DNA from: Streptomyces sp. B3I8
Lineage (GTDB): Bacteria > Actinomycetota > Actinomycetes > Streptomycetales > Streptomycetaceae
Assembly (NCBI RefSeq): GCF_030816915.1
Contig: NZ_JAUSYN010000002.1
Coordinates: 744,001-808,000, forward strand
DNA length: 64,000 nt
Direction of reading: 5' to 3'
Shown: positions 10,574 to 25,146 of the stretch, piece after piece
How positions within the stretch are numbered: position 1 is the stretch's first letter
Layout of the letters: the number at the start of each line of letters is the position of its first letter
Program-made: the position numbers and the translations under genes
Notes under the pieces: model-generated
Told to the model about the DNA's origin: nothing
The model's database searches: none
The model's input: the letters and a program-made list of their open reading frames with translations, nothing else

Positions 10574-11254
10574 GTGACTCAAGTGAAGGCGCGGGATCCT
10601 CGACGGCTGCTGTTGGTCGAGGACGACCGGGAGCTGGCCGACATGCTCTCCGGCACACTGCGCGACGAGGGGTACGCGGTCGATGTCGCGACCGACGGTC
10701 AACGGGGCCTGCATCTCGGCCTCTCCCGGGAGTACGACGTCCTCGTCGTCGACCGGCGCCTGCCGGCGCTCGACGGCCTGGACCTGCTCGGCCGGCTGAG
10801 ATCCCGCGCGGTCCGTACCCCGGTGCTGATGCTGACCGGGATGGGAGCGGTGAACGACCGGATCGACGGGCTGGACGCCGGCGCCGACGACTATCTGGTC
10901 AAACCGTTCGACCTCGACGAACTGAGCGCCAGATTAAGGGCGTTGTGCCGTCGGGCGCTCGACAGCGCGGACGTCCTCAGCATCGGCTCGGGGCGTCTGT
11001 TCGTCGGCCGCCGGGAAGTGGAGTTGGCCGGCGGCGAGCGGATAGCGCTGGCTGCCCGGGAGTTCGCCCTGCTCTGGGTGCTCGCCTCCCACCCCGACGC
11101 CGTGTTCTCGCGGGCACAGCTTCGCCGGCTGGTGTTCCAGGAGGCGCCGGCGTCGTCGATCGTCGACACGTACGTCTACTACCTGCGCCGCAAGCTCGGC
11201 CGCAAGGTCGTGCGCACGGTTCGCGGCTCCGGTTACCGGCTGGGGGCGCTGTGA
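10574..11254 (+). CDS. OmpR-family response regulator
   Basis: A 226-residue response regulator. The receiver domain (about 11-125) has the acidic pair Asp17/Asp18, phospho-acceptor Asp60 (VVDRRLPALDG), Thr88 and Lys110 (LVKPF). The winged-helix DNA-binding domain (about 130-226) ends VRTVRGSGYRLGAL. The GTG start at 10574 lies 7 nt after GGGGAG. It overlaps the sensor kinase gene by GTGA, so they form one translationally coupled pair. Its targets are unknown. It is the nearest regulator to the biosynthetic cluster that begins at 12488, but OmpR-type sites are usually direct repeats, unlike the palindromes found there. Confidence 0.9.
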   Translation: MTQVKARDPRRLLLVEDDRELADMLSGTLRDEGYAVDVATDGQRGLHLGLSREYDVLVVDRRLPALDGLDLLGRLRSRAVRTPVLMLTGMGAVNDRIDGLDAGADDYLVKPFDLDELSARLRALCRRALDSADVLSIGSGRLFVGRREVELAGGERIALAAREFALLWVLASHPDAVFSRAQLRRLVFQEAPASSIVDTYVYYLRRKLGRKVVRTVRGSGYRLGAL

Positions 11255-12582
11255 GACCGTCGTCGCCCGCCGAGTGTGCGGCGGTGCGGCGGGCCCGGTT
11301 ACGGATCGCCGTGATCACCGGGGCGATCATCACCCTGCTGGTCACGGTCGTCGGCGGCGTCGCGTACACGGTGATGGTGCGCGCGCAGAACGGCCAGGTG
11401 TGGCGCGAGGTGCGTTACAGCGCCGAGTACGGCGACCTGACCAGCCCTCCGGCGTGCACCTGGCTGTACGCGCCCGGCGTGACACCGCAGGCCGACGCCC
11501 CACCCGGCTTCCCCTCGCGCGCCGACGTGGACCGGGTGCGCGGGAGCCACGAGGCCGTGGAACGCACGGTGCGGCGCAACGGCACGGTCTACGTGGTGCG
11601 TACGCAGGTCCGGACGGACGGGACCGTCGTACAGGCGGCGTTCGACATGCGTTTCCAGCTGGCCGACCGCGGCCATCTGTGGTTCGCGCTGGCCGTCGCG
11701 GAGCTGGTGGGGCTGTTCGCCGCCGCCGTCACCGGCGCGGTCCTCGGCCGGCGGGCGGTGGCCCCGCTGGTGGAGGCCCTCACCCGGCAGGAACGCTTCG
11801 TCACGGACGCCAGCCACGAGCTGCGCACACCGATCACCCAGGTGTACACGCGGGCCCAGGTGCTGGCCCGCCAGGCCGCCGCCCAGCGGTTGCCGGGCCC
11901 GCACCGCGCCGATCTGATCCGGCTGGCCGACTCGGCCGGCCGACTCGGCGAGGTGCTCGACGACCTGCTGCTGTCCGCGAGCCTCGCGGCGGATCCGGCT
12001 CGCCCGGCGGAACGCCGGCCGGTCGACCTGGTCGCGCTGGCCCGGTCGGTGGTGGCCGAGGAGTCGGACCGGGCGCGGTCCCGTCGTCTCACCGTCGCCG
12101 TGGACGGCCCGCCGCACCCCCTCGTCGTCGCCGGCATCGAGTCCGCGCTGCGCCGCGCCGTCGGCGAGTTGCTGTCCAACGCGATCAGCCACACCCCGGC
12201 AGGGGGGCGGGTCGAGGTGGGCCTGTCGCGCTCCGGCGGCGTGGTCGGACTGACCGTCACGGACACCGGGCCCGGCTTCGACCCCGCCGCGGTCGACCAG
12301 TTGTTCCAGCGGTTCCACCGGGGCAGCGGCGACGGCGGACGGTACGGGCTGGGGCTCGCACTGCTGCGCGAGGTCGTCACGAGCCACCGGGGCACGGTCG
12401 CCGCCACCGGCCGCCCGGGCCACGGCGCCCGGTTCACCATCCGGCTGCCCGAGTACGTACCCGCCGTCCCGGTCCCGGCGCGTGCGGTCACGGCAGTGCA
12501 CGTGTGGCGAGCAGCCGGGCCGCGGCGCGGACGTCCGCGTCCAGCGGGCGGTCCGGCTCGACCGGGGGAATCTCCTCGATGA
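11251..12582 (+). CDS. Two-component sensor histidine kinase
   Basis: A 443-residue membrane kinase. Transmembrane segments at about 19-43 and 143-165 flank an extracytoplasmic sensor of roughly 100 residues. The H-box is FVTDASHELRTP (His189), followed by an N-box around Asn310, DTGPGF (Asp338) and a GLGLAL G-box. There is almost no HAMP linker between TM2 and the H-box. The kinase fold ends near residue 402 (FTIRLPEYVP), but the frame runs on for about 40 low-complexity residues. The final 95 bp are antisense to the end of the ammonia-lyase gene, suggesting that the original stop was lost at a rearrangement junction. Confidence 0.88.
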   Translation: MRPSSPAECAAVRRARLRIAVITGAIITLLVTVVGGVAYTVMVRAQNGQVWREVRYSAEYGDLTSPPACTWLYAPGVTPQADAPPGFPSRADVDRVRGSHEAVERTVRRNGTVYVVRTQVRTDGTVVQAAFDMRFQLADRGHLWFALAVAELVGLFAAAVTGAVLGRRAVAPLVEALTRQERFVTDASHELRTPITQVYTRAQVLARQAAAQRLPGPHRADLIRLADSAGRLGEVLDDLLLSASLAADPARPAERRPVDLVALARSVVAEESDRARSRRLTVAVDGPPHPLVVAGIESALRRAVGELLSNAISHTPAGGRVEVGLSRSGGVVGLTVTDTGPGFDPAAVDQLFQRFHRGSGDGGRYGLGLALLREVVTSHRGTVAATGRPGHGARFTIRLPEYVPAVPVPARAVTAVHVWRAAGPRRGRPRPAGGPARPGESPR

Positions 12583-14002
12583 GCGCGTCGAGGAGGTCCG
12601 CGCACCGTGGCGCGGTGGGGCGGCGGGCGCCGACGTGGACCGCCTGGCGCAGACCGAGCGCGAGCGACCCGCACAGCAGGCCGAGCAGCTCCGCCATGTC
12701 GTAGGAGCGCAGGGCGGCCTGGGTGCCGAACGGTACGACGTCCTGGTTGTGCAGGTTCGTCGGCAGGCTCTGCATGCTCGCCGGTGTCGCGTTCCGGCGG
12801 ATCTCCGCCACGAACGCGGTGCCGGCGAGCTGCACGCCCTGGAGGCCGTGCTGCAGACCCGGCGCCGTGGCGAGCATCGGCGGCAGCCCGCCGTTGCGTG
12901 CCGGGTCCGTCAGCAGGTCGAGCTGGCGTTCGGCGAGGTTGCCCAGCTGGGCGGTGACCGAGGCGAGCAGGTCGGCCGCGAACGCGGCGGGCTGGCCGAA
13001 GAAGTTGCCGCCGTGCACCACCTTTCCCTGCTCCGTCCCGTCGTCGGGGAAGAACAGCGGGTTGTCGCTGATGCCGCCGAGATCCGCGGCGACCACGCCG
13101 TCGACGTAACGCAGCGCGTCCTCTGCGGCGCCGAGCAGCTGCGGGGCGCAACGGATGCTGTACGGCTCCTGCAGCGGCCGGGTGCCGGACGGGGTGAGGC
13201 CGGTGAGCGTGCCCCGCATCCGGGCGCCGACGGCGACCGCGCCCGGATGGCCGTAGACGCGCAGCAGGTCCGCGTCGAGGAAGCCGGGGTCGCAGCCGAG
13301 GAGGTCGGCCAGCAGACAGGTGAGGGCGGCCAGTGACCGGTGCGCCGCGCGCACGGCGTCGCGGGCCAGGGCCGTGGCCGCGGTGGTGACGGAGGTGCCG
13401 TTGACGAGGGCGAGCGCGTCGCGGCCGTTCAGGGCCAGCGGGCGCAGCCCGGCGGCGGTCAGTGCCTCGTCGGCCGGCATGCGGCGGCCGTCCAGGTAGG
13501 CGTGTCCCCGGCCGCGCAGTGCCTGGGTGGCGTAGGCGAGCGGGATGAGGTCACCGCTCGCCCCGACGGAGCCGTAGCGCGGAACGGCGGGCGAGAAGGT
13601 CGTGGCGAACATCGCGGCGAGCCGGTCGACGACCTCGGCGGACACGCCGGAGACGCCCTGGGCGAGGGACCAGGTGCGCAGCAGGAGGGCGGCACGGCAG
13701 ATCTCGTGCGGCAGGTCGGGCCCCTGGCCGGCCCCGAGGTGGGCCAAAGTGTTGTCGCACTGGTCGGCTTCGTCGGGCCGGCCGGCGTACCCCACGAGGG
13801 CGCCGAACCCGGTGGTGGCGCCGTAGATGCGGGGGGCCTCGCCGTCGCCGCCGTGCCGCAGGCCGTGGAAGAAGCGGCGGCCGCGGTCCAGACGCGAGCG
13901 GGCCCCGTCGTCCACGGTGACGGTGAGCGGGTCCGCCGCGCGGCGCAGGACGGCGGAGTCCGGGGGGCCGGTGAGGGAGACGGTGTTCGTGGTGGTGAGC
14001 AC
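12488..14002 (-). CDS. MIO-type aromatic ammonia-lyase/aminomutase, tyrosine type
   Basis: A 504-residue member of the histidine/phenylalanine ammonia-lyase family. The Ala148-Ser149-Gly150 triad (GSVGASGDLIPLAY) cyclises to the electrophilic MIO prosthetic group. The catalytic Tyr60 sits in YGATTGFG, and NGTSV is conserved. The selectivity pair His88-Leu89 (NTLAHLGAG) aligns with the His-Leu pair of Rhodobacter tyrosine ammonia-lyase, which favours tyrosine over phenylalanine or histidine. The product would be p-coumarate, or beta-tyrosine if the enzyme is an aminomutase; sequence alone does not decide. The GTG start at 14002 is 7 nt from a TACGTT -10 box, implying a leaderless mRNA. It is divergent from the flavoprotein operon and shares its palindrome. 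Confidence 0.85.
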   Translation of the reverse strand: MLTTTNTVSLTGPPDSAVLRRAADPLTVTVDDGARSRLDRGRRFFHGLRHGGDGEAPRIYGATTGFGALVGYAGRPDEADQCDNTLAHLGAGQGPDLPHEICRAALLLRTWSLAQGVSGVSAEVVDRLAAMFATTFSPAVPRYGSVGASGDLIPLAYATQALRGRGHAYLDGRRMPADEALTAAGLRPLALNGRDALALVNGTSVTTAATALARDAVRAAHRSLAALTCLLADLLGCDPGFLDADLLRVYGHPGAVAVGARMRGTLTGLTPSGTRPLQEPYSIRCAPQLLGAAEDALRYVDGVVAADLGGISDNPLFFPDDGTEQGKVVHGGNFFGQPAAFAADLLASVTAQLGNLAERQLDLLTDPARNGGLPPMLATAPGLQHGLQGVQLAGTAFVAEIRRNATPASMQSLPTNLHNQDVVPFGTQAALRSYDMAELLGLLCGSLALGLRQAVHVGARRPTAPRCADLLDALIEEIPPVEPDRPLDADVRAAARLLATRALP

Positions 14003-14064
14003 GTGACGAAACGTAGGCGGTGAATCTCAGAGCGTTCTGAAAACCGCTGGCTAGCTTCCGGAAC
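14003..14064. promoter_or_regulatory. Divergent leaderless promoters with shared operator
   Basis: On the plus strand TAGCTT (14052-14057) is followed by 7 nt and the ATG at 14065. On the minus strand TACGTT (complement at 14010-14015) is followed by 7 nt and the GTG at 14002. A 14-bp imperfect palindrome, TCAGAGCGTTCTGA (14027-14040), lies precisely midway, 11 bp from each -10 box, covering both -35 positions. The same arrangement recurs at 22863-22900. Transcription would begin at or beside the start codons. Confidence 0.7.
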
Positions 14065-15702
14065 ATGACCCATGACTACCTGACGACTCACGACTACCTG
14101 ATCATCGGCGCGGGGCCCGCCGGGCTGCAACTCGCCGCCCTCCTGGAACGGGACGGCGCGGACTACGTCGTTCTGGAGCGTGGCAGTGGTCCGGGTACGT
14201 TCTTCACCCGGTTCCCCCGGCACCGGTACCTGATCTCGAACAACAAGGTGCACACGGGGTACGACGATCCGGAGCTGCGGCTGCGGATGGACTGGAACTC
14301 CCTGCTGAGCGACGATCCGGAGCTGGTGTTCACCCGGTACAGCCCCCGCTACTTCCCGCCGGCCGACGACCTGGTGCGCTATCTGACGGACTTCGCCTCC
14401 CGCACCGGGGTGCGCGTACGGTACGACACCGCCGTCGAGAAGGTCTCCCGCGGCGCCGGGGGCTTCACCGTCACCGACGGCTCGGGCACGGCGTGGCGGG
14501 CCCGGCACCTGGTGGTCGCCACCGGGATGCCCGTGCCGAACCTGCCGTCGGTCCCGGGCGTCGAACTGGCCGAGCGGTACGACACGATCGACACCGATCC
14601 GGAGAACTTCACCGATCAGCGGGTTCTCCTCATCGGCCGGGGCAACTCCGCCTTCGAGACGGCCGAGAACCTGATGGAGCACGCGGCGGTCATCCACATG
14701 GTCGGCTCGGGCTCGCTGAAGATGGCCTGGCGGACGCACTACGTGGGGCATCTGCGCGCGGTCTACAACAACTTCCTGGACAGCTACCAGCTCAAGTCGC
14801 AGAACGCCCTCCTGGACGGCCGGGTCGTCTCCATCGAGAAGCGATCGGACGGCTACCACGTGCGGGTCTCCTTCGAGCGGGTCGACGAGGTGGTCAAGGA
14901 GATCCGCTACGACCGGGTGATCGTGGCGACCGGGTTCCGTTTCGACCGCTCGGTCTTCGACGAGACCTGCACGCCGGACGTGATCGTCGACGACCGCTTC
15001 CCGGCGCTGACGCCGCTCGGCGAGTCGGTCAACGTGCCCGGCCTGTACTTCGCGGGGACGCTGATGCAGGGCCGCGACTTCGGGAAGGCCACCACCGGCT
15101 TCATCCACGGCTTCCGCTACACGGTGCGGGCGCTGCACCGCGGGCTGCGGCAGCGTCACGACGGCGTGCCCTGGCCGACGACCGAGCTCGGGGACGCCAC
15201 CGAGCGGGCCGTCGACGCCGTGATCACCCGGGTCAACCGGTCCTCCGCGCTGTGGCAGCAGTTCGCCGTCCTCGGCGATCTGCTGCTCCTCGGCCCGGAC
15301 GGCACCCTGCGCTACGCCGAGGAGGTGCCCGTCGCCCATGTACCGGGAGCCGTGCGCGCCGGAGACTTCGGCGAGGTGGCCGCCCACGCGGTGATCACCC
15401 TGGAGTACGGGGAGGGCCACGACCGGATCGACCCGTTCGACGTCTCGGCGAGCCGCAAATCGCAACAGGACACGTCGGGGCTGGACGGCCGCTATCTGCA
15501 TCCGGTCGTGCGCTGGTACCGGGACGGCGAGTTCGTCGCCGACCACCACCTGACCGAGAACCTGGAGAACGAGTGGGACAGCGAGGAGTTCCACCGCGCC
15601 CCGCTCACAACGTTCCTCACCACGCACCGGAGCGCCGTCACCCCGACCACCACCGCCGCGCACACCGCCACCCCGAGCGCCGCCGCCCCGGTGGCGCCGT
15701 GA
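14065..15702 (+). CDS. FOXRED2-like FAD/NADPH monooxygenase
   Basis: A 545-residue class-B-type flavoprotein. The N-terminal FAD-binding Rossmann motif is GAGPAG (15-20), followed by a segment resembling FOXRED2 (PGTFFTRFPRHR and MDWNSLLSDDPEL). A second nucleotide-binding motif, GRGNSAFETAE, near 190-200 is for NAD(P)H. It resembles the flavoprotein at 21299-22862 from end to end. Distant relatives include bacterial N-oxygenases that make nitroso or nitro groups, but I cannot assign the substrate. Transcription is probably leaderless. It is the first gene of a five-gene operon, overlapping the next gene by GTGA. Confidence 0.8.
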   Translation: MTHDYLTTHDYLIIGAGPAGLQLAALLERDGADYVVLERGSGPGTFFTRFPRHRYLISNNKVHTGYDDPELRLRMDWNSLLSDDPELVFTRYSPRYFPPADDLVRYLTDFASRTGVRVRYDTAVEKVSRGAGGFTVTDGSGTAWRARHLVVATGMPVPNLPSVPGVELAERYDTIDTDPENFTDQRVLLIGRGNSAFETAENLMEHAAVIHMVGSGSLKMAWRTHYVGHLRAVYNNFLDSYQLKSQNALLDGRVVSIEKRSDGYHVRVSFERVDEVVKEIRYDRVIVATGFRFDRSVFDETCTPDVIVDDRFPALTPLGESVNVPGLYFAGTLMQGRDFGKATTGFIHGFRYTVRALHRGLRQRHDGVPWPTTELGDATERAVDAVITRVNRSSALWQQFAVLGDLLLLGPDGTLRYAEEVPVAHVPGAVRAGDFGEVAAHAVITLEYGEGHDRIDPFDVSASRKSQQDTSGLDGRYLHPVVRWYRDGEFVADHHLTENLENEWDSEEFHRAPLTTFLTTHRSAVTPTTTAAHTATPSAAAPVAP

Positions 15703-16769
15703 CGCTGCGCGAACTGCACGAGAGGGCACAAAGGACGCTGGACCCTGTCGTCTACGACTACGTGGCGGGCGGCGCGGGCGAGGAGCGCGTCCTCACCGGC
15801 AACGAGCAGGCGTTCGAACGGTACGCGCTGCTGCCGCGGGTGCTGCGCGGCAGCGCGACCCGGGACACCGCCGTCGACCTGCCGGGCGCCCCGCGTACGG
15901 CACCGGTGCTCGTCGCGCCCACCGCCTTCCACCGGCTGGTGCACCCGGGCGGCGAGCGGGCCACGGCCCGCGCCGCCGCGGCCGAGGGTGCCGTCCTGGT
16001 GACGGGGGCGGCCGCGACGACCGCGGTCGCCGACGTCGTCGGCGCGGCGCGCGAGGCGGCCCCGGACCCGGCCGTGTGGTTCCAGCTCTATCCGCATCCC
16101 CGCCGGGAGGTCACCGCGGCCCTCGTCCGGCGTGCCGAGGACGCGGGCTGCACGGCCCTGGTGGTCACCGTCGACTCGCCGGTGTTCGGCCGGCACGTCC
16201 GGGACCTGCGCAACGGGTTCACCGACCTGCCGCCGGGCTACGCCGCGGAGAACATGCGCGATCTGCCCGGCTCCCCGCCGGGAGGCCTCACCGACATCCC
16301 CATGTCGCCCGAGGCCGGCTGGCCGGACCTCGCGGAGATCGTGCGCGGTGCCGCGCTGCCCGTGCTGGTCAAGGGGGTGCTGCACCCGGACGACGCGCGG
16401 CTGGCCGTCGGGCACGGCGCGGCCGGGGTGATCGTGTCCAACCACGGCGGCCGCCAGAGCGACGCGGTCCCGGCGGCAGTGGACCGTCTGCCCGCGGTCG
16501 CCGACGCGGTCGCGGGCCGGGTGCCGGTCCTGCTCGACGGAGGGGTGCGCCGGGGCAGCGACGTGGCGGTGGCACTGGCCCTGGGTGCGCGCGCCGTCGG
16601 CGTCGGCCGCCCCGTGGTGTGGGGCCTGGCCGCCGAGGGCGAGGCGGGGGTGCGGCGGGTGCTGGCGACACTGCGGGACGAGTACGACCACACGCTCGCC
16701 CTGTGCGGCGGCCGCCGGAACGCCGATCTGACCGCCGACATGGTGGTGCGGGAGGGCGGGGCACGATGA
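15699..16769 (+). CDS. FMN-dependent alpha-hydroxy-acid oxidase
   Basis: A 356-residue member of the glycolate oxidase / lactate / hydroxymandelate dehydrogenase family, a TIM barrel binding FMN. Visible signatures are YDYVAGGAGEE near the N-terminus, WFQLYPH, LVVTVDSPVFG, and the active-site loop VSNHGGRQSD with catalytic His and substrate-carboxylate-binding Arg. It oxidises an alpha-hydroxy acid to the alpha-keto acid, using oxygen or a carrier. The closest functional analogues in Streptomyces are hydroxymandelate oxidases, which fits an aromatic pathway, but this is inference. Its GTG overlaps the preceding stop and its own TGA overlaps the ATG of the P450 gene, so it is tightly coupled. 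Confidence 0.83.
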   Translation: MTLRELHERAQRTLDPVVYDYVAGGAGEERVLTGNEQAFERYALLPRVLRGSATRDTAVDLPGAPRTAPVLVAPTAFHRLVHPGGERATARAAAAEGAVLVTGAAATTAVADVVGAAREAAPDPAVWFQLYPHPRREVTAALVRRAEDAGCTALVVTVDSPVFGRHVRDLRNGFTDLPPGYAAENMRDLPGSPPGGLTDIPMSPEAGWPDLAEIVRGAALPVLVKGVLHPDDARLAVGHGAAGVIVSNHGGRQSDAVPAAVDRLPAVADAVAGRVPVLLDGGVRRGSDVAVALALGARAVGVGRPVVWGLAAEGEAGVRRVLATLRDEYDHTLALCGGRRNADLTADMVVREGGAR

Positions 16770-18130
16770 GCGGCGGTACGGAGACGTGGTGGCTGCCGCG
16801 CGCCGTGGTGGCGCTGCGCGTACGCATCTTCGAGAAGGTGAACGGCGACCGTGCGGTGACGCTGCCCAACGCCACGCACGGCCCTGAGGTGTTCGAGCGG
16901 GTCTACGCCCACCCGGCGGCGAACGGGCGCAGCGAGGGGGCGGGGCTCTCCGACCTGTTCTGGTACTGGCTGGCGCCGGGGCCCGAGGTGCACCAGGAGC
17001 ACCTGGAGCCCGGCGAGCGCTACGAGGACGTGGCCGCGACGACGCGGCGCATCGTCGCCGGAAGCTCCGAGGAGCTCACCGCGGCGGCCGCCCGCGCGGT
17101 CGCCGGCGTGCTGGACACGCTGCCGGACGACCGCGTCGGTCTCGTCCGGCTGCGGGACCTGGTGATGCCCGCGTGGGCGGAGTTCGCCTACGAGCTGGTC
17201 TTCCGGGAGCCGTGCCCACCGCGTGCCCGGGAGTTGATCGTCGCGCACGCCGACGACGTGGTCACCGCCCTGAAGTGCACCGGTCTGCGCCACCCGCGGC
17301 GCCGGGCCCGGCTGACGGAGTACCTGCGGGAGCGGGTCGCGGCCGGTGACGTGCCGTACCGCCTCCCGGCCTCCCTGTCGCCGGCGGAGCAGGTGCACTA
17401 TCTGCAGGGCACCTTCTTCAACACGGCGGTCGTGCAGCTCTCCGAGGCGACCGCGCACGTCCTGCTCGCCCTCGCCCACCACCCCCGGGTACAGGGGCGC
17501 CTGGCGGCGGCCCCCGAGGACGACCGGTACCTGACGCACGTCCTCGACGAGACGATGCGCCGGTACCCGCTGTTCGGCATCGCCCACCGCGTCACCACCG
17601 GTGAGATCCCCCTCGACGACGAGACGGTACTGCCGGCCGACACCGTGGTGTGCTTCAGCTACCCCGACTACCACGCCACCGGATACGACCGGCCCGACGT
17701 GTTCGACCCGGACCGCTGGACGGCTCTGGCCGCCAGGGACGCGCACCACATCCCGTACGGCGTGGCGAGGAACCGGCCCTGTCCGGCCTGGCGGCTCTCA
17801 CCGCTCGTGCTGCGCGCGGCGGTCCGCGAGGTGCTCGGCCGGTTCCGGCTCGACTCCACGGCCTCGCACACCCGTTCCATTCCGCACCGGGCGCCCTGCC
17901 TGCTGATCCCGCACGGTCTGCCCCCCGCGTCCCGCCGGGTGCGCGCGCTGCGGACCTTCGTCCGGCTGCGGGACGGTGTGGAGGACGTCACCCGGGGCGT
18001 ACGGCAGTTGGTGCTCGGCACGGTCATGGTGCTGCACGCCCGCCGACTGCGCCCGGCCGGCCGGTACTTCGACGAGCGGCGGACCGGCGGCTGCCCGGTC
18101 GTCCACGCCGCGGAAGGAGGCAGGGGATGA
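16766..18130 (+). CDS. Atypical cytochrome P450
   Basis: A 454-residue P450-like protein. The K-helix ExxR is present (Glu262-x-x-Arg265) and the heme-ligand cysteine is Cys339 in PYGVARNRPCPAW. That loop is not canonical: it has one extra residue and lacks the usual glycines. The I-helix reads FFNTAVVQLSEATAH and lacks the acid-alcohol pair (normally AGxxTT-like) used for oxygen activation. About 70 residues extend beyond the normal C-terminus. These features suggest chemistry other than simple hydroxylation, or use of peroxide or a substrate group for proton delivery. No ferredoxin gene is adjacent. It overlaps the oxidase gene by ATGA and a 19-codon ORF at its end. Confidence 0.75.
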   Translation: MSGGTETWWLPRAVVALRVRIFEKVNGDRAVTLPNATHGPEVFERVYAHPAANGRSEGAGLSDLFWYWLAPGPEVHQEHLEPGERYEDVAATTRRIVAGSSEELTAAAARAVAGVLDTLPDDRVGLVRLRDLVMPAWAEFAYELVFREPCPPRARELIVAHADDVVTALKCTGLRHPRRRARLTEYLRERVAAGDVPYRLPASLSPAEQVHYLQGTFFNTAVVQLSEATAHVLLALAHHPRVQGRLAAAPEDDRYLTHVLDETMRRYPLFGIAHRVTTGEIPLDDETVLPADTVVCFSYPDYHATGYDRPDVFDPDRWTALAARDAHHIPYGVARNRPCPAWRLSPLVLRAAVREVLGRFRLDSTASHTRSIPHRAPCLLIPHGLPPASRRVRALRTFVRLRDGVEDVTRGVRQLVLGTVMVLHARRLRPAGRYFDERRTGGCPVVHAAEGGRG

Positions 18131-18186
18131 CACCCGCGGAGCCCGGGCCCGTGTCCGTTCCGACCGCTCGAGGAGTGGAGACGTGA
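18127..18186 (+). CDS. 19-codon ORF bridging P450 and MFS genes
   Basis: The ATG at 18127 overlaps the P450 stop (ATGA) and has the best Shine-Dalgarno in the operon, a GGAAGGAGG stretch within 18111-18119. The 19-residue product, MTPAEPGPVSVPTARGVET, ends in a TGA that overlaps the GTG of the transporter gene (GTGA). It could be a genuine micro-protein or a translational coupling device that reloads ribosomes onto the transporter message. No homology is recognised. Confidence 0.4.
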   Translation: MTPAEPGPVSVPTARGVET

Positions 18187-19787
18187 CGATTCCCGCGCGG
18201 CCGGCCGCGCTGATCCCCCGGCCCCTGATGTTCTGGACCGGCGTCGCCCTCACGTGCGCCGGCGTGGGCCAGCACGTGTGGATGTTCGTCGACTCCGCGT
18301 CCATGGACTACCACATGGCCATGATGGGGACGTCATGGACGATGTGGGCCGCCATGGCCGCCATCGTCGCGGGCGTGCTGGTCTCCGGGTTCTCGGTGGT
18401 GCAGCCTCCCGGGACGGGTCCCTCGGCGGCCCCCGCGCCGGCCGCGACGTCCCGGAGGGACCGGCACCGCCTCATCGGCGTGCTGAGCTTCGCGCTGATG
18501 GTGGACCAGATGAAACCCGCCACCCTGGCCTTCATCCAGCCCGGCATGCGCGCCGAGTTCCACCTGGGCGCCTCCGGGATCGCGTGGCTGCCCACGGTGG
18601 CGCTCAGCGGGACGGTACTGGGCTCGCTCCTCGGGGGCCGCGCCGCGGACCGCGTCGGGCGCCGGGCCACGATCCTCATCGCGTCCCTGCTGTTCCTCGG
18701 CACGACGGTGTGCGGCGCCATGCCGACCTTCGCCGGCGTCCTCGTGATGTGCGCGCTGATGGGGATGGCGGCCGGCGGCATGCTGCCCGTCGTCTACGCG
18801 CTGATGACCGAGAGCCTGCCGCCCGGCCGGCGCGCCGCCATCATGGTGCTCCAGGCCGGACTCACCACCACCGGCGGCTACATGACCGCCGCCGGTCTTG
18901 CCGCGGTGCTCATCCCGCTCACCGGGTGGCGCATCGCCTGGTTCGCCCAGCTCCCGTTGGTCCTCGTCCTGATCGGGCTGAACCGGTGGATACCGGAGTC
19001 GGCCGCCTTCGCCGCCCAGCGTGCGCGGACCCGACGCGTGCCCGCCTCCACCCTGTTCAAGCGCCCCCACCGGGTGAAGACTCTGGTCGTCGGCGGCTAC
19101 GCGCTGGCGTGGGGCCTCGTCTACTGGGGCTTCATCACCTTCCTGCCCAGCCAGTTGGAGTCCTCGCACCCCCACGGCATGTCCGCCGCCACCCTGCTGT
19201 TCATCTCGTCGCTGTTGTCGATCCCCACCTGTGTGGTGGCCGCGTGGCTGTACATGCGCTGGTCGGCGAAGGGCACCATGGTCGTCTACGCGGCGCTCAC
19301 CGTCACCGCCCTGCTCCTGCTGGCCCTCGTCGGGATGAACGGCGGCCGGCCCGTCCTGCTGACGGCCGTGATGCTGCTGTTCGCCGGAACCGCCGGGGTC
19401 ATCGCGCTCATCGGCCCCTACACGGCCGAGATCTACCCCCTGGCCATCCGGGGGACGGCGGGCGGCTGGGCCGCGGCGGTCGGGAAGTCCGGCGGGGCCT
19501 TCGGTCCCCCTCTGGTCGCGCTGATCCTCTCCGCGCCGGGAGGCATGCGCACCGCCGCGGTCCTCGTCGCGCTCCCCGTGGCTCTGGCGGGGATCGCCGT
19601 CGCCCTCCGCGGCAGCGACCCCCGGTCCGCCGCCGCCGGCCCCGGGGACACCACCGTCCGGCTGGACGCCGAACTCGACGCCCTCGTGCACGGCGCGGGC
19701 GTCCCCGCCACCAAGGCGCCCGCGCCGGCATCGCGCACACCGGAGAAGGAGGACGCGCCGGGAGGCGACCCGGATCCGGCCCGCTGA
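18183..19787 (+). CDS. MFS transporter, aromatic-acid/sugar-porter-like
   Basis: A 534-residue major facilitator. Two extra hydrophobic segments (about 14-35 and 50-70) and a proline/alanine linker precede the standard 12-helix body that starts near residue 95. MFS motif A (GGRAADRVGRR) follows the second core helix, and EIYPLAIRGTAGG marks helix 10-11. Overall it resembles aromatic-acid:H+ symporters and sugar porters. In this operon it probably exports the product or imports a precursor. The GTG start is preceded by GGAGTGGAG. The two-helix N-terminal addition is unusual for the family. It is the last gene of the plus-strand arm and converges on the ligase gene. Confidence 0.85.
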   Translation: MTIPARPAALIPRPLMFWTGVALTCAGVGQHVWMFVDSASMDYHMAMMGTSWTMWAAMAAIVAGVLVSGFSVVQPPGTGPSAAPAPAATSRRDRHRLIGVLSFALMVDQMKPATLAFIQPGMRAEFHLGASGIAWLPTVALSGTVLGSLLGGRAADRVGRRATILIASLLFLGTTVCGAMPTFAGVLVMCALMGMAAGGMLPVVYALMTESLPPGRRAAIMVLQAGLTTTGGYMTAAGLAAVLIPLTGWRIAWFAQLPLVLVLIGLNRWIPESAAFAAQRARTRRVPASTLFKRPHRVKTLVVGGYALAWGLVYWGFITFLPSQLESSHPHGMSAATLLFISSLLSIPTCVVAAWLYMRWSAKGTMVVYAALTVTALLLLALVGMNGGRPVLLTAVMLLFAGTAGVIALIGPYTAEIYPLAIRGTAGGWAAAVGKSGGAFGPPLVALILSAPGGMRTAAVLVALPVALAGIAVALRGSDPRSAAAGPGDTTVRLDAELDALVHGAGVPATKAPAPASRTPEKEDAPGGDPDPAR

Positions 19788-19857
19788 CTCCTCGGCGATC
19801 CGGCCCGTAGGCCCGGCCCCGTCGATGCGGCCCGTTGGCGCTCGACGGTCCGGCCCG

Positions 19858-21306
19858 CTAACTCCCCACCGCGAGGCGGCGCTTGTCGGGCTTCCCGGCG
19901 GCGGTGAGCGGTACCTCGTCGAGGAGGGTGAGCCGGGTCGGCGCGCAGGCCCCGCCCAGCTCGGCCGTCACCCACGCGCGCAGCTCGCCGAGGTCCGGGA
20001 GGCGGCCGGCGGCGGGCACCACGAAGGCGTGGACGGCCTCGCCGGTGCTGTCGTCGGGCACGGCGACCACGTACGCCTCGGCCACCGAGCGATGGGCGGC
20101 GAGCCGCCGCTCGACGGGCCCGGCGTAGTACACGTTGGCGTTGACGATGACCACGTCGCGGACGCGCCCCGTGAGCCACAGTCGTCCCGACGCGTCGAGA
20201 CGGCCGAGGTCGCGGGTGCGCACCCACCCGTCGGTGAACACCTCCGCGCTGAGGTCCGGTTCCCGCCAGTAGCCGGAGCCCTGGGCCGGGGTGCGGACGA
20301 ACAGCTCGCCGTCGGTGCCGGGCGGGACCGGGCGGCCGGAGCGGTCGCGGATCTCCAGATCGACGGGCGGCAGGCCGAGGGAGCCCGCCGGCTCGTCCGG
20401 GGTGGCCATGGAGATCATGCCGGTCTCGGTCTGTCCGTAGCCATGGAAGACGACCGGGCCGAGCACCTCGGCGGCCTCCCGCAGCCGCCCCGGCTCCAGC
20501 GGTGAACCCGACACCATCAGCGCCCGCAGGCTGCCGAGGTCCACGGGCGAGGCGCGCTGCGACGCCACGAGTTTCGTCAGCCGGGCGACCGTGATGACGC
20601 TCGCGGTCGCCCGGTACCGCACCAGGGCGTCGGGGAGGACCGGCGGGTCGGCGGTGACGAGGGTGCCGCCGGCGGCGAGCGCCAGCAGCCCGTACTCCAT
20701 CATCACCTGGCTGGCCAGGGTGCCGAACACCAGGAACCGGTCCAGGCGCCCGGCGAGTTCGCGCACGGCGGGCGGCCAGGCCTCCGGGCGGTGGGCCCAG
20801 CCCGCGGTCATCGCCGCGTAGGTCTGGACGCACGCCTTGGGGAGGCCGGTGCTGCCGCTGGTGTGCAGGAGCCGGGCGACGTCCCCGGGCCGTGCCCGCA
20901 CCCGCGGCCGCTCGCCGCCGTCGGGCGCCGACAGCAGGTCGTCGAGCGCGAGGACGAGCCCGGCCCCGTGGGCGGCGGAGTCGTCGAAGCGGTCGGTGAC
21001 CCGCACGGCGACGTCCCGCAGCAGATGCTCCCGCTGCGGTCCCGTGAGACCGGGGCGCACGCCGACCACACGGGCCCCGACGACATGGGCGGCGATGATC
21101 GCGGCGAACGCCCCGGGCCCGACCCCCAGCAGCATGGCGACGCCGTCCCCGGGTCCGACCCCGTGTTTGCCCAGGCCGCGCACCGCGCGCCGCACCATGC
21201 CGAGGAGCCGGGCCCCCGAGACCTCCTCGCCGCCGTGCTCGAACACCGTGCGTCCGCCCGCCGCGTCGAGGAGGTCCAGCACGGGGCCGGGGAACTGCTC
21301 AGCCAA
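19858..21306 (-). CDS. ANL-superfamily acyl/aryl-AMP ligase
   Basis: A 482-residue adenylating enzyme. Motif A3 is LLHTSGSTGLPK near residue 150, A5 is YGQTETG near 285, A7 is TRDLGRLDASGRLWLTGR near 385, and the C-terminal A10 lysine is in PLTAAGKPDKRR. It activates a carboxylate as acyl-AMP and usually forms a CoA thioester. A hydroxycinnamate from the cluster's ammonia-lyase would be a natural substrate. Some homologues instead act as ATP-dependent diazotases, an alternative worth noting beside a possible N-oxygenase. The TTG start at 21306 follows GGGAG and overlaps the preceding flavoprotein stop by 8 nt. It is the second gene of the minus-strand arm. Confidence 0.8.
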   Translation of the reverse strand: MAEQFPGPVLDLLDAAGGRTVFEHGGEEVSGARLLGMVRRAVRGLGKHGVGPGDGVAMLLGVGPGAFAAIIAAHVVGARVVGVRPGLTGPQREHLLRDVAVRVTDRFDDSAAHGAGLVLALDDLLSAPDGGERPRVRARPGDVARLLHTSGSTGLPKACVQTYAAMTAGWAHRPEAWPPAVRELAGRLDRFLVFGTLASQVMMEYGLLALAAGGTLVTADPPVLPDALVRYRATASVITVARLTKLVASQRASPVDLGSLRALMVSGSPLEPGRLREAAEVLGPVVFHGYGQTETGMISMATPDEPAGSLGLPPVDLEIRDRSGRPVPPGTDGELFVRTPAQGSGYWREPDLSAEVFTDGWVRTRDLGRLDASGRLWLTGRVRDVVIVNANVYYAGPVERRLAAHRSVAEAYVVAVPDDSTGEAVHAFVVPAAGRLPDLGELRAWVTAELGGACAPTRLTLLDEVPLTAAGKPDKRRLAVGS

Positions 21307-22862
21307 GGCTCTCCCTCACAAAGGCGATGAGCGGCTGCCGGTGGACGGCCGGCAGGTTCCACTCGTTCTCCAGGTTCTCCGCCAGGTGGTGGGTCCCCGC
21401 GAGCACGCCGTCCCGGTAGTGCCGGACGACGGGGTGGAGATACGTGGAGTCCATGGCGTGCTCGACGTCGTTCTCCAGGACGCGCGGGACGCCCACGTCG
21501 AAGGGGGTCGGCCTGGTCGTGGTCGAGCCCGTACTCCAGGTCGACGACGAACCGGTGCGCGGCGGTCCCGAGGGACCCGTCGACGACGTAGTCGAGCGGA
21601 ACCTCTTCCTGGTACACGGCCCGGTCGCCGTCCACGCCCCCTACGCCGTCCACACCGACCACGTCACCGAGGAACGCGAACTGCTGCCACAGGTCCGAGG
21701 AACGGTTGACCCGGGCGATGACGGCGTCGGCGATCGCCTCCGGTGTCGCCTCCAACTCCCGCGCCGGCCAGGGGGTGTCGAGGTGGCGGGCGCCCAGGAT
21801 GCGGTGCAGGGCGCGGGTCGCGTAGCGGAAGCCGTGGATGAAGCCGTTGGTCGACTTCTTGAAGTCCCGCTGCTGCATCAGCGTGCCGGTGAAGTAGAGG
21901 TCCGGCACGTTGACGGATTCGAAGGACGAGGTCTGCTCCGGGAAGCGGTCCTTGATGACGAGGGCGGGGCGGCAGTCCTCGTCGAAGACGGAGGCGTCGA
22001 AGCGGAAGCCGGTGCACGCGATGATCCGGTCGTAGTACAGCTCGCGCAGCGGTTCCGAGGTCCGGGCGTAGCGGAGCATCACCCGGAAGCCGCCGCCGTC
22101 GGCCTTCTCGATGCTCTCCACGGTGCCGTCGAGCACCGCGTTCTGGGACTTGAGCTGGTAGGTGTCCAGGAAGTTGTTGTTCACCGCGCGCAGATGGCCG
22201 AGGTAGTGGGTCTTCCACGCGAGCTTGACCGAGTGCGGTCCGGCCAGATGGATGACCGCGGCCTTCTCGATGAGGCCGTCCGCGGTCTCGAACGCGGAGT
22301 TCCCCTTGCCGATGACGAGCACTCGCTGGTTGGTGAAGGAGGCGGGATCCGGGTCGAAGGTGTCGTACCGCTCGGCGAGTTCGAAGCCCGGGATGTCCGG
22401 CTCGTAGAGCCGGGAGATGCCGGTGGCCATGACGAGGCGTCTGGCCCGCCAGGTCCGTCCGCCGCCGTCGTGCACGGTGAAGACGCCGTCCGTGCGGGAG
22501 ACCCGGACCACCTCCGTCCCGTACTCGACGCGTACGCCGGTACGTGCGGCGAAGTCGGTCAAATAGCGCACGAAGTCGTCCGCCGGCGGGAAGTAGCGCT
22601 CGGTGTACCGGGTGAACAGCAGCTCCGGGTCGTCGCTGAGCAGCGAGTTCCAGTCCATGCGCAGCTTGAGCTCCGGGTCCGTGAAGCCCGTGTTCACCTT
22701 GTTGGTCGATATCAGTTGCCGATGGCGGGGGTACCGGGTGAAGAACGTCCCCGGCCCGCTCCCCCGCTCCAGGACGACGTAGTCGCGCCCGTCGCGTTCC
22801 AGCAGTGAGGCGAGTTGAAGTCCGGCCGGTCCGGCCCCGACGATGAGATAGTCGCGCACCAT
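21299..22862 (-). pseudogene. FOXRED2-like FAD monooxygenase with single-base frameshift
   Basis: This is a paralogue of the enzyme at 14065-15702. The ATG at 22862 opens a frame with GAGPAG, the PGTFFTRYPRHR and MDWNSLLSDDPEL blocks and GKGNSAFETAD. It stays in frame as far as LEYGLDHDQADP. There one extra base in a run of five (plus-strand G's at 21503-21507) shifts it. Removing one base restores DPFDVGVPRVLE and the conserved tail YLHPVVRHYRDG...HHLAENLENEWN to the stop at 21299, giving about 520 residues. The lesion could be a sequencing error or a real, perhaps phase-variable, homopolymer change. An insert VGVDGVGGVDGD is not in the paralogue. Transcription is probably leaderless. Confidence 0.78.
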
Positions 22863-22900
22863 GGGCCGGACGCTAGCGAGGCGAAATCAGAGGCCTTTGA
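22863..22900 (-). promoter_or_regulatory. Leaderless promoter with cluster operator
   Basis: On the minus strand TAGCGT (complement at 22870-22875) is 7 nt from the ATG at 22862. A 14-bp imperfect palindrome at 22887-22900 (plus strand TCAGAGGCCTTTGA) ends 11 bp upstream of the -10 box. Spacing and sequence, including the flanking GAATCTCA and CTAGC...TCCGG blocks, match 14003-14064. It drives the flavoprotein-ligase arm of the cluster. Confidence 0.68.
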
Positions 22901-23412
22901 GATTCGGCGGCGTCCCGGGGCGCGCCCGGAGCGCCCCGGCGGCCGCTCGCCCGGTTTCGGCACCCGACTTCGGGCCCCGGGCCCCGATCCTCGCTCCCCC
23001 GGGCCGGCGGTCCGCCGCCTGCCCGCCGCCTGCCCGCCGTACCCGCGGGGTTCCGGGCGCTCCGGTTGCACACGCTCCTCGGCGTCTGCGAGCCTTCACG
23101 GTGGAGGGCTGTGAGAACGGCCACCACTGTGCGCGGGAGAGCGGGCGGTCCGGAACGACCTGCGGCACCGGCGAGCGGCGGCGCGGCGACGACGCCGCGA
23201 CGACACCGTGCACGGGCTGCCGGAGGCCGTGACGATGCCCGTGTCGGCGTGAGGCGGCTCCGCAAGCCGTCGCAGTCGTGCGCCGTCGTGCGCCGTCGTG
23301 CGGCGTCGTGCGAGTCCACATGGTTTCGCGCACGTGTGCGTGACCGCGGGCCGTCTGCCATGGAATGCTCCAGGCGGGGTAGCTGGACTTGCGTTTCGGA
23401 CCGAGGAGAGAC
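22901..23412. other. Intergenic region with decamer repeats
   Basis: There is no supported gene in this 512-bp stretch between the cluster promoter and the SpoIIE-type phosphatase. Positions 23271-23314 hold about 4.4 copies of a 10-bp tandem repeat with consensus CGCCGTCGTG. The last part should contain the phosphatase promoter. Confidence 0.55.
23271..23314. repeat. 10-bp tandem repeat, 4.4 copies
   Basis: The successive units are CGCAGTCGTG, CGCCGTCGTG twice, CGGCGTCGTG and a partial CGAG. They lie about 100 nt upstream of the phosphatase start. The function is unknown; replication slippage is the simplest origin. Confidence 0.75.
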
Positions 23413-25146
23413 ATGAACGACACCGCCGCTGCCGGCTCGGGGAACCCTCCCGGGCAACGGGCACGGCTCGGTGCGCCTCTCGACGCGACGCTGGAGGGGG
23501 TGGGCACGGCTGCCCTCGTCCTCGATCAGGCAGGCCTCGTCGTCGCGGCCAACGAGCCGGCTCTCAGGACGCTGGACCGGCGGCTGGAGGAGCTCGTCGG
23601 GAAGGACTTCCACGACCTGCTGCACCGTGACGAGCACGGCAACGCCGTACCCCGCCTCCGCTGCCGGCTGAGGAACGCGGTCCTCGGCAAGGACACCCGG
23701 CACGGCGACGCCGAGTGGTTCGCCCGGGGGGACGGCACCCTGTTCCAGTCGTGCTGGCTGGTCACGCCCTACACGTCGGCCCCGGAGACGGCCGGCGCCC
23801 TCGTACTGCTGTACGAGCCGCCGCAGCCGGGCGAATCCCTCCCCGGCGAGGACGTCCACTCCACACGACTGACCGAACTCGACCGGCTGGCCCTGCTCGC
23901 GGAGACGACCACGCAGCTCACCTCGACCCTGGACGTGGACGAGGCGCTGCACCGGCTGGCGGCCCTCACCATCCCCCGGCTGGCGGACTGGGCGGTCTTC
24001 GACCTGCTCACCGAACGCGACGAGGTGCGACGGGCCCTGGTCGTGGAGCACAAGGACGGGGTCCTCGTCGAACGGGACGACCTGCAGGGCCCCATGCCTC
24101 CCGTGCCGGAGGAGTCCCCGATGCCGCTGTCGCGTGCGCTGCGCGGCACCGCCTCCTCGCTGGCCGGCCCCTCCACCTACCAGGGCGCGCCCGATTCCGG
24201 CATCGCGGTCGAACAGCAGCGCCTGTTCACCGCGACGGGCATGCACTCCGCCGCCATCGCACCGATCCGGGGTCTGCGCGACGTGCTCGGCGCCCTCACC
24301 CTGGGCCGCGCGCGGCACCGTGAGCCCTTCACCCTCGCGGACCTGCCGTTGCTGGAAGATCTCACCCGCCGCACCGGCCTGGCCCTGGACAACGCGCGCC
24401 TGTACCAGCGTCAGCGCAAGGTCGCCGAGACCATGCAGCGCCATCTGCTGCCCCAGCTCCCCACCGTGCGCGGACTGGAGATGACCGCGCGGTACCTGCC
24501 GTCCCCGGATGCCTCGTCCGTGGGCGGCGACTGGTACGACGCCTTCACACTCGGCGACGGCACCCACGCACTGGCCATCGGCGACGTCGTCGGCCACGAC
24601 CTCGACGCCGCGGCCGGCATGGCGCAGGTCCGCAACATGCTGCGCGCCTTCGTCTGGTCCCGGCCGGCGGCCGCACCCAGCGCCGTCGTCACCCAGCTCG
24701 ACGAGGCCGTGATGCACATAGCCGAGGTCCCCATGGTGACCATGATCCTCGCCAGGCTCACCCGCGGTGACGACGCGCTGTGGCGCCTGCACTGGACGAA
24801 CGCCGGCCACCCGCCGCCCCTGCTCATCACCCACGACGGTCAGGCCGAGTACCTCGACGGCGCCCACGGCATGCTGCTCGGGACAGAGGTCGTCAGACCC
24901 CGCCCCGACTCCGTCACCGTCCTGCCGCCCCGGTCCACGCTGCTGTTCTACACCGACGGGCTGGTCGAATCACCCCATCACTCCATCGACCACGGGCTCA
25001 GCCGCCTGTACCGTCACGCGGCCTCCCTCGCCCACCGCAACCTGGACTCCTTCTGCGACGCCCTGCTGGAACGGGTACGCCCCGACGACAACGACGACGA
25101 CGTCGCCATGCTCGCGCTGCGCACCCCCTTCCACACGGCGGCATAG
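23413..25146 (+). CDS. PAS-GAF-SpoIIE protein phosphatase
   Basis: A 577-residue cytoplasmic PP2C-type phosphatase. A PAS-like domain (about 22-135) is followed by a GAF domain (about 165-330) and the SpoIIE/RsbU catalytic domain (about 345-572). Metal-binding motifs of the last are readable: GGDWYDAF, IGDVVGHDLDAA, NAGHPPPLL and FYTDGLVE. Such proteins dephosphorylate anti-sigma-factor antagonists in response to signals sensed by the PAS and GAF domains, releasing alternative sigma factors. There is no transmembrane region and no kinase or antagonist gene beside it. The ATG at 23413 follows GAGGAGAG. Confidence 0.88.
   Translation: MNDTAAAGSGNPPGQRARLGAPLDATLEGVGTAALVLDQAGLVVAANEPALRTLDRRLEELVGKDFHDLLHRDEHGNAVPRLRCRLRNAVLGKDTRHGDAEWFARGDGTLFQSCWLVTPYTSAPETAGALVLLYEPPQPGESLPGEDVHSTRLTELDRLALLAETTTQLTSTLDVDEALHRLAALTIPRLADWAVFDLLTERDEVRRALVVEHKDGVLVERDDLQGPMPPVPEESPMPLSRALRGTASSLAGPSTYQGAPDSGIAVEQQRLFTATGMHSAAIAPIRGLRDVLGALTLGRARHREPFTLADLPLLEDLTRRTGLALDNARLYQRQRKVAETMQRHLLPQLPTVRGLEMTARYLPSPDASSVGGDWYDAFTLGDGTHALAIGDVVGHDLDAAAGMAQVRNMLRAFVWSRPAAAPSAVVTQLDEAVMHIAEVPMVTMILARLTRGDDALWRLHWTNAGHPPPLLITHDGQAEYLDGAHGMLLGTEVVRPRPDSVTVLPPRSTLLFYTDGLVESPHHSIDHGLSRLYRHAASLAHRNLDSFCDALLERVRPDDNDDDVAMLALRTPFHTAA

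Follow-up and report, generated by a model that had tools for sequence, protein, structure and literature searches.

How are the two arms of one biosynthetic cluster, presumably tyrosine-derived, switched on together, and by which protein? This question is raised by a locus of Streptomyces sp. B3I8 (NCBI RefSeq assembly GCF_030816915.1, contig NZ_JAUSYN010000002.1, positions 744,001 to 808,000), a stretch of 64,000 nucleotides referred to here as the window. In it, copies of one palindromic operator precede an aromatic amino acid ammonia-lyase gene, the divergent gene of the flavin adenine dinucleotide (FAD)-dependent monooxygenase FMO1, and a further arm composed of the FMO1 paralogue FMO2 and an acyl-CoA ligase gene. 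Our answer, which we hold to be likely, is that the OmpR-type response regulator encoded at 10574-11254 takes the position of a -35 element on the DNA and turns on both arms of the cluster, which would be transcribed as leaderless mRNAs.

The geometry of the promoters was read directly from the DNA. The core of operator 1 is TCAGAGCGTTCTGA (14027-14040), and that of operator 2 is TCAGAGGCCTTTGA (22887-22900). At each of three promoters, the core is separated by 11 bp from a TANNNT box, which in turn lies 7 nt from a start codon: TAGCTT precedes the ATG of FMO1 (14065) on the plus strand, and TACGTT and TAGCGT precede the GTG of the lyase gene (14002) and the ATG of FMO2 (22862), respectively, on the minus strand. 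Operator 1 occupies the exact midpoint of its two divergent -10 boxes, which stand 36 bp apart, and the likeness between the FMO1 and FMO2 promoters extends past the operator core. An earlier interpretation made from the letters of the window alone (the sequence-only reading) had described this geometry, the midway position of site 1 and the longer flanks conserved between both sites; the geometry proved accurate to the base, direct reading bore out the midway position, and the flanks are present as claimed. The 14-bp palindrome it had named is likewise present at both sites, but the operator reaches slightly further, and CTCAGA-N4-TCTGAG describes it better: an inverted repeat of 6-4-6 layout whose half-sites lie 10 bp apart.

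Counts within the window and across the genome define how much weight the motif itself can bear. TCAGAGNNNTYTGA occurs at 2 exact places in the window; with up to 2 mismatches, 9 places were seen versus 10.1 expected from shuffles, and the loose motif alone is therefore weak evidence. A genome-wide motif search returned TCARAGNNNTYTGA without mismatch at just these two places in the whole 7.98-Mb genome. Every TCTCAGAGNNNTYTGARA-like place outside the cluster carries at least 2 mismatches, and at up to 3 mismatches 71 places were found versus 43 in the control, which is a moderate excess only. The idea of a wider regulon in this genome was dropped on these grounds.

Comparison with relatives provided the main evidence. 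The lyase was searched for in 392 genomes of the genus, the present genome included; 69 matched at E ≤ 1e-60, 22 of these with at least 83% identity. Regions were fetched from 20 of the 21 other genomes with a lyase at this identity, leaving out G147, in which the lyase lies on a 3.4-kb contig. The palindrome was present before the lyase in all 20 regions, and in all 17 regions that include the other arm, a second palindrome preceded FMO2 or, if FMO2 was missing, the ligase. In four of the 22 genomes (loci L045, L046, L047 and L049), the lyase match was split into two pieces meeting near residue 320; because three of the four split matches join in one alignment, extra residues at this point are likelier than broken lyase genes.

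A larger named set, overlapping the 20 genus regions, comprised 80 of 130 relatives found and spans 15 actinobacterial genus names, with 39 Streptomyces loci and 41 loci of other genera. In 78 of the 80 loci, the lyase start retains the 20-bp operator, and this decisive point establishes that the operator is not a product of chance. Absence of the palindrome from orthologous clusters, against which the earlier claim had been staked, was examined here, and the claim survived. When spacers of 9-13 bp were allowed and 11 bp was tried first, the lyase-side spacer to TANNNT measured 11 bp in 75 of the 78 loci, 12 bp in two and 10 bp in one. On the divergent side it measured 11 bp in 73; the remaining five have no TANNNT at 9-13 bp, four of them lacking a detected FMO1, FMO2 or ligase start and the fifth (L178) having its box further out. 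Over the 78 loci, information content reaches 1.8-2.0 bits at each letter of the cores TCAGA and TCTGA; beyond the operator and the -10 boxes, it is about 1 bit or lower at most positions. TCAGA-N4-TCTGA is found in 74 operators and the full CTCAGA-N4-TCTGAG in 33, and the centre of the palindrome varies (CG, TG, CC, AG, AA, TT and others).

The second operator was found with an 11-bp spacer in 33 of the 39 Streptomyces loci. In the six that remain (L114, L122, L124, L127, L131 and L141), the stretch or contig stops short of that start or the arm is lacking. No second site of this geometry was seen in the 41 non-Streptomyces loci, in most of which FMO2 and the ligase, often followed by FMO1, the flavin mononucleotide (FMN) enzyme and the P450, run on from operator 1. 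The operator is retained where FMO1 is missing (L061 and L072), precedes the ligase where FMO2 is missing (L064, L065, L067 and L070), and follows the FMO2-ligase block where that block is inverted (L110, L123, L125 and L139). Of ten lyases of 57-63% identity in other genomes of the genus, eight were inspected (L043, L044, L048 and L050-L054), and none showed the operator in the 122 bases around the start.

As a separate observation, FMO1 and its operon were not found in L116, L128 and L135, where the lyase keeps the palindrome with just its own -10 box; L061 is taken as the same contig as L116, and L072 as the same contig as L135.

For the lyase, 77 of the 78 loci place the first in-frame start codon 6-8 nt past the -10 box; in the 78th (L108), an in-frame TTG comes first and a GTG lies at 7 nt. 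On the divergent side, a start was called in 70 loci, 7-8 nt after the -10 box, and the two starts are 61-63 bp apart in 69 of the 70 loci in which both were called. Because the start codon follows the box by only 6-8 nt, there is no room for a Shine-Dalgarno site. The transcripts of the three arms are thus predicted to be leaderless, starting at or beside the start codon, in agreement with the sequence-only reading. In Streptomyces coelicolor, leaderless mRNAs arise from 21% of primary transcription starts, and the -10 element is usually TANNNT (PMC4895711); TANNNT about 12 bp before the start codon is described as a mark of leaderless genes (PMC3160421). The present promoters resemble these leaderless promoters in the placement of the box; they differ in that the layout goes together with a common operator at the cluster arms.

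The candidate reader of the operator is encoded next to the cluster. Genes for a response regulator and a histidine kinase lie directly beyond the lyase gene and convergent to it. The statement in the sequence-only reading that the cluster holds no obvious partner regulator was wrong, since this OmpR-type regulator and its kinase (10574-12582) adjoin the lyase and recur with it. A regulator copy with 80-96% identity lies near the lyase in all 20 fetched genus loci, and the kinase was found in 19. Across the 392 genomes, with scoring confined in each to the top 3 first-look candidates for the lyase and the top 7 for the regulator, at cut-offs of 1e-60 and 1e-70, a regulator of at least 80% and a lyase of at least 83% identity occupy the same 22 genomes; the next-best regulator matches, at 60-63%, fall in eight other genomes of the genus. 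Among the 78 operator loci, the regulator lies within the fetched locus in 70. In five Nonomuraea/Actinomadura loci, a single regulator match (58-62%) is unlinked and lies in a second pathway piece with FMO1 and P450 homologues. The regulator lies just past the fetched end in L184 and on another contig in L124 (taken as G147:C422); L175, a short contig, was left out of the regulator search beyond the fetched locus.

We then considered which other genes travel with the lyase. Among 433 frames of at least 80 amino acids in the window, after removal of overlaps, only the two-component pair (as the kinase frame), the cluster enzymes and the transporter recur in at least 3 of the 80 loci, whose stretches reach about 10 kb on the regulator side and about 1 kb past FMO2; the 20 larger regions, reaching up to about 5 kb past FMO2, yielded an identical list. 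Over these stretches, no further regulator was recurrent. The domains of an OmpR/PhoB-family two-component pair, given in Table 1, all score above cut-off in these two proteins. Against TIGR01387, the model for CopR/CusR-type heavy-metal regulators, the regulator scores 160.3 bits, below the cut-off of 279.2, and the RppA, PmrA and TctD models score it about equally, all below cut-off. The operator has a CopR/CusR-like 6-4-6 layout, but the regulator is not classed in that family. Taken together, these results indicate that the adjacent OmpR-type regulator probably reads the operator, and they lend indirect support to the earlier proposal of one dedicated regulator for both arms.

The neighbourhoods of more distant regulators supply a link between this protein and the half-site. 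Thirteen neighbourhoods of regulator paralogues with 58-63% identity were surveyed for exact CTCAGA pairs within 25 bp. Such pairs were found in ten, all of them direct repeats with an 11-bp period and with no other kind of pair; the ten comprise 4 of 5 Nonomuraea/Actinomadura neighbourhoods and 6 of 8 around Streptomyces paralogues, and fall into two sets of related loci, one of 4 and one of 6. The 80 lyase loci, 1.63 Mb in all, contain no direct repeat of CTCAGA with a separation of 6-30 bp. Inverted pairs, counted in the order CTCAGA...TCTGAG, number 37, every one at the 10-bp offset. The C-terminal segment VDTYV[YH][YH]LR, taken to contact DNA, is common to the cluster regulators and the paralogues. 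One lyase locus, L178, has a mixed operator, in which the inverted pair is followed 11 bp on by a third half-site with one mismatch, and the last half-site lies 11 bp from a TANNNT box.

Individual paralogue loci add further detail. In L200 and L202-L206 (Streptomyces loci with paralogues of 60-63%), two or three CTCAGA-type direct repeats with an 11-bp period lie about 5 kb away; L202, the only one of these read, seems to encode a pathway resembling that of 3-amino-4-hydroxybenzoate. In L207, near a 60% paralogue, TCTGGG-N5-TCTGAG at about 10401 is followed by TAACGT at 11-bp spacing, ahead of an MFS gene.

These results suggest a mechanism in which the histidine kinase (11284-12582) would switch the regulator on, and two regulator monomers would occupy the inverted CTCAGA repeats, whose centres are 10 bp apart, at the -35 position. 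The bound regulator, 11 bp upstream of the -10 box, would recruit RNA polymerase by class II activation, a mode favoured because the box stands at the -35 position with rigid spacing to the -10 box. Through the two-fold symmetry of 14027-14040, one site could serve both directions and turn on the lyase and FMO1 arms; with only 36 bp between its -10 boxes, two polymerases would be expected to use it alternately, hardly both at once. The second copy (22887-22900), with its one-sided -10 box, would turn on the FMO2-ligase arm. A two-fold site over the -35 region had been anticipated by the earlier interpretation, which named no direction of control, and is supported here. Sequence, geometry, conservation, co-inheritance, the joint absence of operator and regulator match in two loci and the half-sites common with paralogues are direct observations; binding, phosphorylation, activation over repression and the transcript starts are what we infer from them.

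The proposed mechanism can be set beside several known systems. In PhoB-type class II activation, a box 10-11 bp upstream of the -10 element replaces the -35 element. Pho boxes are direct repeats serving one direction, and the PmrA box is a direct-repeat box. Unlike PhoB-type boxes, one symmetric box would here serve two directions. A close likeness is to AgrR, an OmpR-family regulator whose box is an inverted repeat of 6-4-6 layout accompanied by in-phase direct repeats, and which may work by Type II activation (PMC7380067). Both boxes have two hexameric inverted half-sites with a 4-bp spacer, 10 bp apart; the AgrR boxes are positioned as expected of a Type II activator, one of them likewise between divergent genes, and the extra in-phase direct repeats at some AgrR operators are similar to the mixed operator of L178. 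The CopR and PcoR boxes are described in the same study as inverted repeats within 16 bp (PMC7380067). The present system differs from AgrR in its half-site (CTCAGA here, ATTACA there), and from AgrR, CopR and PcoR in a regulator that falls below the NCBIfam heavy-metal cut-off and in its targets, a biosynthetic cluster with apparently leaderless promoters of strict symmetric geometry. MtrA of S. coelicolor, also OmpR-type, has half-sites five letters apart with an 11-bp period (PMC5650626), like the direct repeats near the paralogues and unlike the inverted half-sites of the lyase clusters with their 10-bp offset. The parts are of known kinds; what is distinctive is the strict symmetric two-way layout, its wide spread, and the switch between inverted and direct boxes within one clade.

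From this switch we draw a broader proposal, tentatively and with somewhat more doubt than belief. One dyad-symmetric box may provide two overlapping leaderless promoters with a common -35 element usable in either orientation, a single dimer firing polymerase alternately each way. Within one clade having the same recognition segment, the box may have changed over between two arrangements, direct repeats of 11-bp period at one-way promoters and an inverted repeat of 10-bp offset at the two-way promoter, which would show the passage from a one-way to a two-way activator.

Several observations weigh against activation by the adjacent regulator as described above. AgrR is reported to activate without phosphorylation (PMC7380067), and the phosphorylation step is therefore an assumption. 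Operator 2 has two mismatches to the half-sites, and a window scan at up to 2 mismatches revealed no clear operator copy at the regulator's own gene. Exact CTCAGAGNNCTCTGA occurs in 17 of the 22 lyase genomes, five being without it, yet also in 8 of the 370 genus genomes without a lyase of at least 83%. Three of the 13 paralogue neighbourhoods have no exact direct repeat: L199 and L207 have one with one mismatch, and none was seen in L201. The segment DTYVHYLR also occurs in three regulators of another genome with 50-55% identity (L192-L194). The sole exact CTCAGA-N5-CTCAGA of the present genome (L208, contig 2, about 1144153) lies just upstream of a different OmpR-type pair, whose regulator is 41% identical to the cluster regulator; because this pair also has a direct repeat, the CTCAGA half-site belongs to a broader regulator group. 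The site near 1144 kb had been considered as a target of the cluster regulator and was rejected as belonging to that other pair. Finally, the two loci without operator (L143 and L144; best score 10/20) retain a lyase gene that has the ligase or FMO2 as its neighbour, and TACGCT lies 7 nt before the in-frame start codon of their lyase. Because this -10 box is kept, the leaderless lyase promoter is not strictly dependent on the operator. The divergent gene of both loci has a purine-rich Shine-Dalgarno-like leader (GGAGG), and no regulator match at E ≤ 1e-50 was found among the 150 candidates scored in each genome; this joint absence of operator and regulator match counts in favour of the adjacent regulator.

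The same regulator and box could instead act in repression, with the dimer occluding the -35 region at the three promoters and leaving it only in response to a signal. At every promoter, the -35 region lies under the box, a position also used by repressors, and in L143 and L144 the lyase -10 box and its 7-nt distance persist as in a promoter freed from its repressor; this persistence (n = 2) suggests either repression or a promoter that has gained other help. We nevertheless regard repression as unlikely, since the rigid 11-bp spacing (75/78 and 73/78) suits contact with polymerase better than blocking, which tolerates shifts, and AgrR, whose box has the same layout, is a possible Type II activator (PMC7380067). 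Another rival explanation is that the palindrome is read by an outside regulator, of the LacI, TetR, MarR or another OmpR type, and that the adjacent pair controls something else; the direct repeats upstream of the other OmpR-type pair give this some substance. In addition, a 14-bp palindrome with a central CG resembles LacI-type operators. Against an outside reader, the palindrome centre is variable, unlike that of LacI sites; operator and regulator match are jointly absent in two loci and are both retained, unlinked, in five; the half-sites are common to paralogues of this very regulator; and no second regulator accompanies the lyase in the stretches compared. We consider an outside reader improbable, and a LacI-, TetR- or MarR-type operator in particular was dropped, as the centre varies and no gene of these types recurs within the stretches examined. 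It is scarcely credible, finally, that the sites are alike merely through duplication of FMO1 and FMO2 with a copied promoter, the palindrome having no regulatory role. The two genes are indeed paralogous and their promoters alike beyond the core; however, across the 78 loci the core hardly changes whereas the flanking positions mostly do, the lyase, which is not a paralogue of them, shares site 1, and the operator persists despite a missing FMO1, a missing FMO2 or an inverted FMO2-ligase block. Duplication of an FMO promoter was dropped on these comparative data.

Overexpression of the adjacent regulator (or its removal, should it be a repressor) would be expected to switch the whole cluster and make the product testable. 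A probable regulator, its box and three exact promoters are now assigned to a cluster found under 15 actinobacterial genus names. The inverted, direct, mixed and lost boxes beside one clade also form a natural series for how winged-helix response regulators rearrange their dimer on DNA.

Table 1. Operators, -10 boxes and genes of the cluster, in window coordinates.
Feature	Position	Strand	Basis or remark
Operator 1, CTCAGA-N4-TCTGAA, common to both divergent promoters	14024..14043	.	core 14027-14040
Operator 2, -10 box on one side only	22884..22903	.	core 22887-22900
-10 box TACGTT, lyase promoter	14010..14015	-	11 bp to core, 7 nt to GTG
-10 box TAGCTT, FMO1 promoter	14052..14057	+	11 bp to core, 7 nt to ATG
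-10 box TAGCGT, FMO2-ligase promoter	22870..22875	-	11 bp to core, 7 nt to ATG
OmpR-type response regulator, 226 amino acids, predicted operator reader	10574..11254	+	Pfam PF00072 (receiver), PF00486 (winged-helix Trans_reg_C)
Histidine kinase, start codon provisional	11284..12582	+	Pfam PF00512 (HisKA), PF02518 (HATPase_c)
Aromatic amino acid ammonia-lyase, MIO type, predicted leaderless GTG	12488..14002	-	PF00221 E 9.7e-126; 2o6y alignment; geometry
FAD-dependent monooxygenase FMO1, predicted leaderless ATG	14065..15702	+	Pfam PF13738
FMN-dependent alpha-hydroxy-acid dehydrogenase/oxidase	15699..16769	+	PF01070 E 1.7e-111; overlaps FMO1 end; presumably FMO1 operon
Divergent cytochrome P450	16766..18130	+	PF00067 E 2.4e-11; presumably same operon as FMO1
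MFS transporter, aromatic-acid symporter-like, start provisional	18183..19787	+	PF07690; TIGR00895 below cut-off
AMP-dependent acyl-CoA ligase, TTG start	19858..21306	-	PF00501, PF13193
FAD-dependent monooxygenase FMO2, FMO1 paralogue, predicted leaderless ATG	21300..22862	-	PF13738; low end approximate

The genes of the cluster are listed in Table 1. The lyase has a His-Leu pair of apparent tyrosine type, which aligns with the His-Leu of 2o6y, a tyrosine lyase. The NCBIfam lyase models listed all score below cut-off, and among the matches listed no NCBIfam model for any cluster enzyme reaches it. The MFS transporter is found in just 11 of the 80 orthologous loci. No matching cluster or description was found in the searches made of open-licence PMC papers, and a literature search for avenalumic acid with two-component terms gave no mention of that acid among the matches listed.

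Two further features of the window were recorded. The FMO2 frame is broken in a short C run at about 21.5 kb, and homology continues in another frame up to the ligase start; the break may be a sequencing error or a real mutation, which look the same here. A PP2C/SpoIIE-like gene (23389-25146, plus strand) lies beside the cluster. Among the 20 fetched regions, the same neighbour is present in L058 only, and it also stands beside the cluster in L107, which is taken as the same contig as L058.

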